NCBI RefSeq assembly: GCF_000372745.1
Contig: NZ_KB889664.1
Location: 1 to 64,000 of the forward strand
Direction: 5' to 3'
DNA: 64,000 nt
Origin: Embleya scabrispora DSM 41855
GTDB lineage: Bacteria; Actinomycetota; Actinomycetes; Streptomycetales; Streptomycetaceae
A program made the translations under genes and the position numbers. Each line of letters starts with the position of its first letter. Position 1 is the stretch's first letter. Under the pieces are notes generated by a model. It saw nothing but the letters and a program-made list of their open reading frames with translations, was not told the origin of the DNA and made no database searches. Positions 6,778-7,216 of the stretch are shown piece after piece.

Positions 6778-6822
6778 GGTCGTGCCCTTCGGGAGTGCTC
6801 TTGAACGGCGCTCCCGGACGAC

Positions 6823-6876
6823 CTATCGTCCGACCGTGACTCCGGAGGGGAGCACCCATGTCGATACTGCGTTCAC
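6823..6876 (-). CDS. leader ORF of the hydrolase gene, 17 codons
   Basis: GTG at 6876 follows a strong SD (GGAGG seven bases upstream on the minus strand) and reads MNAVSTWVLPSGVTVGR before TAG. It begins with the same residues as the leader at 7108-7161 and has the same length. The stop codon lies in the four-base loop of a perfect six-pair hairpin (6816-6821 with 6826-6831). A second stem (6791-6798 with 6808-6815) separates it from the SD of the hydrolase gene. The arrangement suggests translation-dependent control of the downstream gene, not a functional peptide. Confidence 0.6.
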   Translation of the reverse strand: MNAVSTWVLPSGVTVGR

Positions 6877-6913
6877 GGGTACCACCTCCTCGTTCTCTCG
6901 CACGGCCTCCGGA

Positions 6914-6943
6914 AACGTAGCAGCGGTCGCCATGGTCCGCCAA
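6914..6943 (-). promoter_or_regulatory. candidate promoter for the hydrolase leader
   Basis: On the minus strand TTGGCG (6943-6938) and TACGTT (6919-6914) are spaced by 18 bases. They lie about 25 bases before the SD of the leader ORF. Assignment is by consensus only. Confidence 0.4.
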
Positions 6944-7039
6944 CAGGTTTCGCGGACGCTCGGTGACCGGATGCCACGGAGCCGCTCGCCCAAAGGCCAA
7001 GCCCGTGCGGTCAGTTGTGATCACCTGGCCGGGAAAGGA

Positions 7040-7068
7040 TTGGACGGGATGATGCTCGGGTTTGTAGC
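7040..7068 (+). promoter_or_regulatory. candidate promoter for the monooxygenase leader
   Basis: TTGGAC (7040-7045) and TGTAGC (7063-7068) are spaced by 17 bases, at nearly the same distance from the leader SD as the counterpart on the other side. Confidence 0.45.
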
Positions 7069-7107
7069 TTGCGGTGGACCGTGACACCGCCCGAGGAGGC
7101 GAGACCC

Positions 7108-7161
7108 ATGAACGCTGTATCGATGTGGGTGCTCTCCCTCCCGTCACGGTCGGGCGATTGA
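7108..7161 (+). CDS. leader ORF of the monooxygenase gene, 17 codons
   Basis: ATG at 7108 follows GAGGAGG and reads [17 protein letters not shown] before TGA. The first nine codons match the divergent leader except for one position. After WVL the two leaders diverge because of small indels, yet both stop at the same structural place. The TGA (7159-7161) sits in the loop between GGCGA (7153-7157) and TCGCC (7170-7174). The same stem on the other side is GGACGA/TCGTCC, so the pairing is kept while bases change. This argues for a selected RNA structure coupled to translation of the leader. Confidence 0.65.
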
Positions 7162-7208
7162 TGTAGGTGTCGCCGGGAGCGCCTCGCCAACAAGGCACTC
7201 CCGAAAGG
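7153..7208 (+). promoter_or_regulatory. tandem hairpins and SD before the monooxygenase
   Basis: Stem 1 is 7153-7157 with 7170-7174. Stem 2 (7175-7183 with 7194-7202, one mismatch) follows with no gap and ends directly against the SD GAAAGG (7203-7208) of the gene starting at 7217. The same order (leader stop in loop 1, stem 2, SD) occurs on the minus strand before the hydrolase. Confidence 0.6.
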
Positions 7209-7216
7209 CAACACCC

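Follow-up and report, generated by a model that had tools for sequence, protein, structure and literature searches.

Leader ORFs and mutually exclusive RNA helices behind WblC/WhiB7-type promoters: a probable ermC-like translational attenuator in actinobacteria

The window analysed here is a 64,000-nucleotide stretch of Embleya scabrispora DSM 41855 (contig NZ_KB889664.1, positions 1 to 64,000). It contains a divergent gene pair that encodes an alpha/beta-hydrolase-fold protein (hyd1) on the minus strand and a Rox-type FAD monooxygenase on the plus strand, with two 5' leaders in inverted orientation lying between the two genes. Each leader combines a Shine-Dalgarno sequence (SD), a 17-codon ORF that starts MNAVSxWVL, and hairpins that reach the SD of the main gene. 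By eye, the ORFs near the pair include a KdpD-like sensor kinase (8873-11614, minus strand) and a Ser/Thr protein kinase (3230-4972, plus strand). The features of the locus are as follows, with the helices named lock and antilock as described below.

6055..6777, minus strand: hyd1, alpha/beta-hydrolase-fold protein, 240 aa, elbow GYSGM (from a model, fold and sequence comparison)
6778..6823, minus strand: left lock, GGTCGT 6823-6818 / ACGACC 6783-6778, with inner stem GGGAG 6815-6811 / CTCCC 6795-6791 (from sequence and pairing counts)
6790-6785, minus strand: main SD GAAGGG of the hyd1 gene, trapped by the left lock
6815..6832, minus strand: left antilock, CGGACGA 6832-6826 / TCGTCCG 6821-6815, leader stop in the loop (from sequence, conservation and energies)
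6823..6876, minus strand: left leader ORF VNAVSTWVLPSGVTVGR, 17 codons, GTG 6876-6874, stop TAG 6825-6823 (from sequence)
6889-6885, minus strand: SD GGAGG of the hydrolase-side leader ORF (from sequence)
6914..6950, minus strand: WblC/WhiB7-type promoter of the hydrolase leader, A-tract 6950-6948, -35 TTGGCG 6943-6938, -10 TACGTT 6919-6914
7034..7070, plus strand: WblC/WhiB7-type promoter of the rox leader, A-tract 7034-7036, -35 TTGGAC 7040-7045, -10 TAGCTT 7065-7070
7095..7099, plus strand: SD GGAGG of the rox-side leader ORF (from sequence)
7108..7161, plus strand: right leader ORF, 17 codons, ATG 7108-7110, stop TGA 7159-7161 (from sequence)
7153..7174, plus strand: right antilock (stem 1), GGCGA 7153-7157 / TCGCC 7170-7174, leader stop in the loop (from sequence and conservation; energies do not favour the antilock in rox leaders)
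7166..7215, plus strand: right lock, GGTGT 7166-7170 / ACACC 7211-7215 (from sequence and pairing counts)
7172-7209, plus strand: extra pairs of the right lock, GCC 7172-7174 / GGC 7207-7209, and inner stem GGGAG 7175-7179 / CTCCC 7198-7202
7203-7208, plus strand: main SD GAAAGG of rox, trapped by the right lock
7217..8767, plus strand: Rox-type FAD monooxygenase, 516 aa; about the first 43 residues form an extension before the FAD domain, as on hyd2 proteins

An earlier note on this DNA had described paired inverted leaders with SDs and a shared MNAVSxWVL start, a stem 1 (GGACGA/TCGTCC on the left, GGCGA/TCGCC on the right) that holds each leader stop inside its loop, and a stem 2 (GGGAG/CTCCC) that directly adjoins the main SD. 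All of these are present in the sequence, with the correction that the left start codon is GTG. Both stems of its two-stem drawing exist, but a third helix that encloses the SD and excludes stem 1 had been overlooked; we refer to this helix as the lock and to stem 1 as the antilock. Similarly, a leader ORF of exactly 17 codons is true of both window leaders, but relatives vary in length (17 codons in 152 of 197 leaders, 19 in 29, 16 in 10 and other lengths in 6).

The note had further claimed that the two leaders jointly control the divergent pair. Among the matches listed, 0 of the 117 other leader loci in named genomes (mostly stretches of 8 kb) hold a second leader, and we therefore rejected the idea that the pair of leaders forms a single module for joint control of divergent genes. 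The mirror arrangement thus appears to be particular to this window. Within the window's own genome, only these two copies match the leader start without mismatch; a third match (L003, 3 mismatches) lacks both an SD and the expected order of hairpins and was therefore taken as chance.

The lock is formed by GGTCGT/ACGACC in hyd1 leaders and by GGTGT/ACACC in the others. With the inner stem GGGAG/CTCCC added, the hairpin surrounds the main SD and reaches as far as the start codon, so that both are trapped. The antilock pairs the leader tail, GGGCGA or GGCGA, with TCGTCC or TCGCC; it uses or encloses the 5' arm of the lock and therefore excludes it. Either helix could form in 163 of the 188 non-redundant leaders; these 188 are what remained of the 197 for the pairing test once one leader without an anchor and the remaining duplicates had been dropped. 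Lock pairing in this set stands at 89.1%, compared with a mean of 72.2 and a maximum of 76.8 for shuffled partners (0 of 500 as high), and four of the five lock pairs have double-changed cells. Antilock pairing stands at 96.6%, compared with a shuffled mean of 95.6 and a maximum of 96.3 (0 of 500). The contention that pairing is retained while bases differ is supported, and for both helices the total pairing exceeds that of every shuffle, these being shuffles that ignore the relatedness of the leaders. A large part of the lock signal across the whole set comes from the contrast between classes. Among non-hyd1 leaders alone, 2 of 500 shuffles pair as well in the lock, and within hyd1 alone the helix is too invariant to give a covariation signal (96 of 500 as high). 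The corresponding antilock counts are 21 of 500 for hyd1 alone and 7 of 500 for the others alone.

Other pairings were considered and rejected. We had first expected a 1:2 pairing between the 5' end and the leader, and this gave no partner-specific signal over a set of 168 leaders (200 of 200 shuffles as good), with a signal in the gnat subset only (0 of 200). Leaders excluded from this set comprised 12 lacking VL, 12 lacking the GGGAG arm, 7 in which no SD was recognised, 4 with no ORF, 6 duplicates and 1 located at an edge; a count of individual-arm conservation missed 6 of the 168. A pairing of GGTGCTC with GGGAGCGCC gave no partner-specific signal either. No T-run follows the lock hairpin in either window leader, where the next letters are GAAAGGCAACACCC or GAAGGGCACGACC. 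The hairpin is therefore not an intrinsic terminator, which rules out transcription attenuation by such a terminator.

We identified the leader in many other genomes. A leader-start pattern with up to 2 mismatches is found in 174 of 249 genomes of the family, compared with a single match for the reversed control pattern; some of the matches (L004, L012) have no lock hairpin and were put down to chance. A peptide-agnostic RNA pattern (GGTGCTC, GGGAGCGC, CTCCCGAAAGG) is found in 63 of 394 genomes of the class, with 0 matches for its reversed control. An exact scan of named genomes returned at least 117 stretches, and the matches listed come from Streptomyces, Nocardia, Nonomuraea, Amycolatopsis, Micromonospora, Actinoplanes, Pseudonocardia and Saccharothrix, among other genera. 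Each of two queries matched 42 plasmid records, with at least 80% of the query covered in 24 and 10 of them, respectively. Among the 20 plasmid matches listed per query, either the main gene is annotated, nothing is annotated, or the whole record is unannotated, and one row adds a hypothetical protein. The note had also supposed that the element was undescribed, and we found no description of this leader in the open-licence PMC literature, a search outside which most subscription papers lie. The leader cassette is thus real and widespread in actinobacteria and apparently undescribed.

Judged by sequence motifs, the leaders stand behind a promoter of the WblC/WhiB7 type. A relaxed form of this promoter (A-tract by the -35 element, spacing of 15-19 bp, TANNNT -10 element) precedes 141 of 167 leaders and lies exactly 37 nt before the leader start in 121 of these 141. 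Shuffled sequences would be expected to yield about 0.1 instances in total, and 0 of 778 random windows contain one. The relaxed form also occurs in 48 of the 65 peptide-agnostic leaders. In the available text of its source, the WblC motif is given as GAAAWY 3 bp before the -35 element (PMC7157823), and this strict published form is found in 33 of the 167 leaders. The leader promoters thus resemble those of the WblC/WhiB7 regulon in the A-tract just 5' of -35, the TANNNT -10 element and the similar spacing, but differ in that few carry the strict motif and in that a conserved leader RNA comes after them. The categories that the same text names for the S. coelicolor regulon include N-acetyltransferases, oxidoreductases and hydrolases (PMC7157823).

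Many of the 197 leaders came from a pattern that contains part of the peptide. Conservation of the peptide is therefore argued from the peptide-agnostic set only, the pattern for which fixes GG-GTG-CTC and leaves free the first base of the Trp codon and everything upstream. Within this set, an SD is present in 65 of 65 leaders and Trp precedes Val-Leu in 63 of 65. The conserved Leu falls at codon 9 in 50 leaders and at codon 8 in the other 15; in an additional match, L276, it falls at codon 7 and the Val-Leu follows an Arg. Whole codons have been lost while the frame to WVL stays intact, and this argues that the leader ORF is read. Past WVL the reading frame is no longer kept (VTVGR, VTAGD, SRSGD), although the RNA is retained, and the conserved stretch of the peptide thus ends at WVL. 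The earlier caution that the early codons and the RNA structure would matter, and not the whole peptide, is supported in that these are what is conserved.

For codons 2-6, the GTG leaders contain 7 of the 13 synonymous variants that could arise and 6 of the 32 non-synonymous ones; in the ATG leaders the counts are 3 of 10 and 6 of 35, respectively. Codon 2 (AAC) is invariant in this comparison, and the constraint on codons 3-6 is weak because variants of both kinds occur. Leaders usually contain one Trp codon, with Arg or Gly in its place in a few. Run-on frames of 25 to 597 codons are found in 5 of the 197 leaders; L161, L052, L135 and L145 have such frames without the usual stop, which may reflect decay or a dispensable stop. 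Divergent leaders from the protein-centred loci L306, L310, L297 and L313, such as VNASIRAL (L306, without WVL), MNERTMWVL, VIAVSTWVL and VQAVSTWVL, show positions that tolerate change.

Inspection of the proteins encoded behind 147 leader matches led to the identification of hyd1, the related hyd2, Rox, and GNAT acetyltransferases (assigned by Pfam Acetyltransf_1); 11 of the matches have no readable ORF, and two of these are chance matches. A protein-first search with the hydrolase family, in which 30 loci were fetched from 36 listed matches in 29 of 148 genomes, found the leader at 23 of the 30. The window hyd1 matches no Pfam family above cut-off. Its AlphaFold model (pLDDT 88.4) has as its nearest solved fold the esterase 4ao8, at 31% identity, and the aligned solved esterase 4ao6 has a G-x-S-M-G elbow where the window protein has GYSGM. 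The hyd1 elbow is shortened, mostly to GYSGG or GYSGW, and of the 81 readable hyd1 proteins (94 in all) at least 9 carry Glu or Ala in place of the Ser; the Ser of GYSGG may still act as a nucleophile. The hyd2 nucleophile position is occupied by Asn, Ala or Gly in 21 of 21 readable proteins (27 in all). No hyd1 or hyd2 protein among the readable leader-bearing loci has a nucleophile Ser in a canonical GxSxG elbow: this elbow is present at 0 of 20 readable leader-bearing loci (23 loci), compared with 3 of 3 readable leaderless ones (7 loci). The hyd2 loci L005, L009, L013 and L036 have elbows such as GINMGT and GIALGT, and the leaderless L308, L312 and L316 keep GVSMG or GVSLG.

The window Rox scores 831.6 bits against the rifampin monooxygenase family NF033145 (cut-off 800), on which its substrate is a prediction, and its best solved relatives are the rifampin monooxygenases 5vqb and 5kow. 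It is not the genome's only copy, because a second Rox of 845.9 bits is present at G000:C125:161846-163282 (L196). In a tree of 28 Rox rows, 23 leader-bearing and 5 others, the leader-bearing proteins group with the leaderless L200 at a support of 100/100; the outgroup is small because only 5 of 30 fetched Rox-family loci were parsable.

The earlier note had proposed tests with and without rifamycins, and the distribution of the rifamycin-associated RAE element does not support rifamycin as the signal. Within as much as 600 nt of upstream sequence (less than 400 nt at one locus), none of the 30 leader-bearing rox loci has the core of this element even when one substitution is allowed, compared with RAE-like palindromes 5' of all 5 parsed leaderless Rox loci (L192, L193, L198, L216 and, in degenerate form, L200). 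The window contains 0 matches to the 19-bp palindromic RAE with up to 3 mismatches, searched with a consensus that was borne out at L198. A rifamycin response via RAE was thus rejected, and rifamycin as inducer is unsupported given that leader-bearing rox genes lack the element. A comparison with RAE-controlled rox/helR, as described in the available text of PMC10719064, shows the same enzyme family but another promoter and an RNA switch in place of RAE in the window and at the leader-bearing rox loci.

At 14 of the 30 leader-bearing rox loci, DNA similarity to hyd2 cassettes runs through the promoter and leader to nt 108-127 of the rox ORF and stops at the FAD domain. These rox genes are best read as having captured a promoter, a leader and roughly the first 36-42 codons from a hydrolase-like gene. 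We also note that the N-terminal extension of Rox (7217-7345 in the window; also L040, L058, L107 and L132) resembles the hyd2 N-terminus, as if by translational fusion.

The earlier proposal of a translation-linked attenuator ahead of a Rox-type monooxygenase and a hydrolase-fold protein is supported, and forms part of the reading that we propose. With a probability of roughly 0.6, we consider that the leaders are ermC-like translational attenuators within a portable cassette of WblC/WhiB7-type promoter, leader ORF, RNA switch and gene start. Free-running ribosomes would clear the 3' end of the leader, allowing the lock to form and hide the main SD and start codon. If instead a ribosome stalled once the conserved Leu codon of WVL (number 9, in some leaders 8 or 7) had entered its P site, the leader tail would be left free to form the antilock with the lock 5' arm, and the SD would open. 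We infer that the leader is translated and that ribosomes stall near WVL; the cause of the stall would be a ribosome-targeting antibiotic, and the target proteins would counter the stall-causing or related drugs. The switch thus probably turns on resistance-type genes upon ribosome stalling.

We computed energies for the two helices with the ribosome edge placed 16 nt from the P-site codon, a distance of 16-17 nt being given in the available text of PMC5118997; 17 of the 188 leaders were skipped. When the ribosome is placed at WVL, the computed balance favours the antilock over the lock in 103 of 105 leaders of the hyd1 class (median -2.1 kcal/mol), in 13 of 26 of hyd2, in 2 of 27 of rox and in 2 of 13 of gnat. 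In a codon-by-codon scan of up to 27 leaders per class, the computed cost of opening the SD in hyd1 leaders is 3.2 for a ribosome at codon 9, between 4.2 and 4.9 for one at codons 14-18, and 3.0 in free mRNA, which is thus about as open as the stalled state; the contrast between codons 9 and 13 barely exceeds that of shuffled controls (22% vs 14-15%). The left (hyd1) leader is consistent in its computed energies with the ermC-like model. In rox and hyd2 leaders the cost stays at about 6-7.5 kcal/mol until the ribosome reaches codons 15-18, where it drops to about 3, and the rox SD is closed with the ribosome at codon 9 (7.3) and opens only at codons 15-18 (down to 3.0). The gnat leaders have no contrast between codons 9 and 13. 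A simple equilibrium ermC model for all classes is thus weakened by the computed energies. Because the rox energies disagree, the right leader would need kinetic trapping during transcription or opening by a terminating ribosome.

Opening by a terminating ribosome is the basis of an alternative that we consider unlikely, in which a ribosome finishing the leader covers the lock 5' arm, opens the SD and promotes (re)initiation, drugs or stress act on the frequency of leader translation, and the peptide plays no part. The fall in rox and hyd2 opening cost at codons 15-18 fits this reading, as does the placement of both window leader stops, within the loop of the antilock and immediately ahead of the lock arm. 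The hyd1 opening cost trends the opposite way, however; the stop also varies in position (16, 17 or 19 codons), with run-on frames in 5 of 197 leaders, and Trp is retained before Val-Leu in 63 of 65, yet a T-to-C change there would, if the hairpin is read correctly, strengthen the pairing of GTG-type RNAs. The single conserved Trp codon could also point to a tryptophan attenuator of the classical biosynthetic type. This we regard as highly implausible, as the codon is usually alone and gives way to Arg or Gly in a few leaders, the targets do not look biosynthetic and no terminator lies behind.

The strong conservation of the RNA and its two exclusive helices would suit a riboswitch-like element that is sensed by a protein or small molecule and in which the leader ORF is incidental. 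This seems very improbable, since the leader frame and SD survive codon losses and the window has 0 Rfam matches at gathering thresholds. Finally, the rox copy could be under dual control, still induced by rifamycin via an unrecognised element in addition to being controlled in translation. The family cut-off passed by the window Rox and its closest solved relatives agree with this, but RAE-like elements precede the parsed leaderless Rox loci and neither the window gene nor the other leader-bearing rox genes, which have the WblC-type promoter in 28 of 28 cases (the later-found L233 is without it), and we hold such dual control to be improbable.

The ermC-like attenuator that we favour has close parallels among known systems. 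The small and hydrophobic stall motif of ErmCL, FVI, can be likened to WVL. Like the leaders described here, the ErmCL-ermC system has a short leader ORF, exclusive stem-loops and a main SD that is hidden when uninduced. According to the available text of PMC13148051, stalling of ErmCL at codon 9 (Ile9) induces ermC, and codon 9 is the usual position of the conserved Leu in our leaders. The systems differ in peptide and RNA sequence, and the cassette has a WblC-type promoter, actinobacterial hosts, energies that fit part of the leader family, and targets in four protein families that include no rRNA methyltransferase. Streptomyces whiB7/wblC and ARE-ABCF attenuators (lmrC, are5sc, tiaA) likewise sense ribosome inhibitors through uORFs in the same group of organisms, as far as is described in the available text of PMC12421871 and PMC7157823. 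They are described there as acting by ribosome-mediated transcription attenuation with terminators and other peptides, whereas here a hairpin traps the SD and no terminator is present. The cassette is thus best filed under ermC-type translational attenuation with a WblC-type promoter.

A bolder extension of this reading, which we offer only tentatively, is that WVL ends a drug-dependent arrest peptide carried on a mobile promoter-leader-start cassette and captured by at least four actinobacterial families. The result would be a hidden ribosome-stress resistance regulon that includes hydrolase-fold proteins without a canonical catalytic Ser, which may bind drugs. If the proposed reading is true, a set of resistance-type genes across actinobacteria is marked by a switch, about 130 nt long and so far unannotated, from which a response to ribosome stalling can be predicted, and this set includes a Rox clade that is now filed under rifampicin only. 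It would provide a sequence handle for finding such genes, along with a candidate arrest peptide with a defined stall site. The rox leader and first codons, acquired from a hydrolase-like gene, would further represent a case of regulatory cassette capture.
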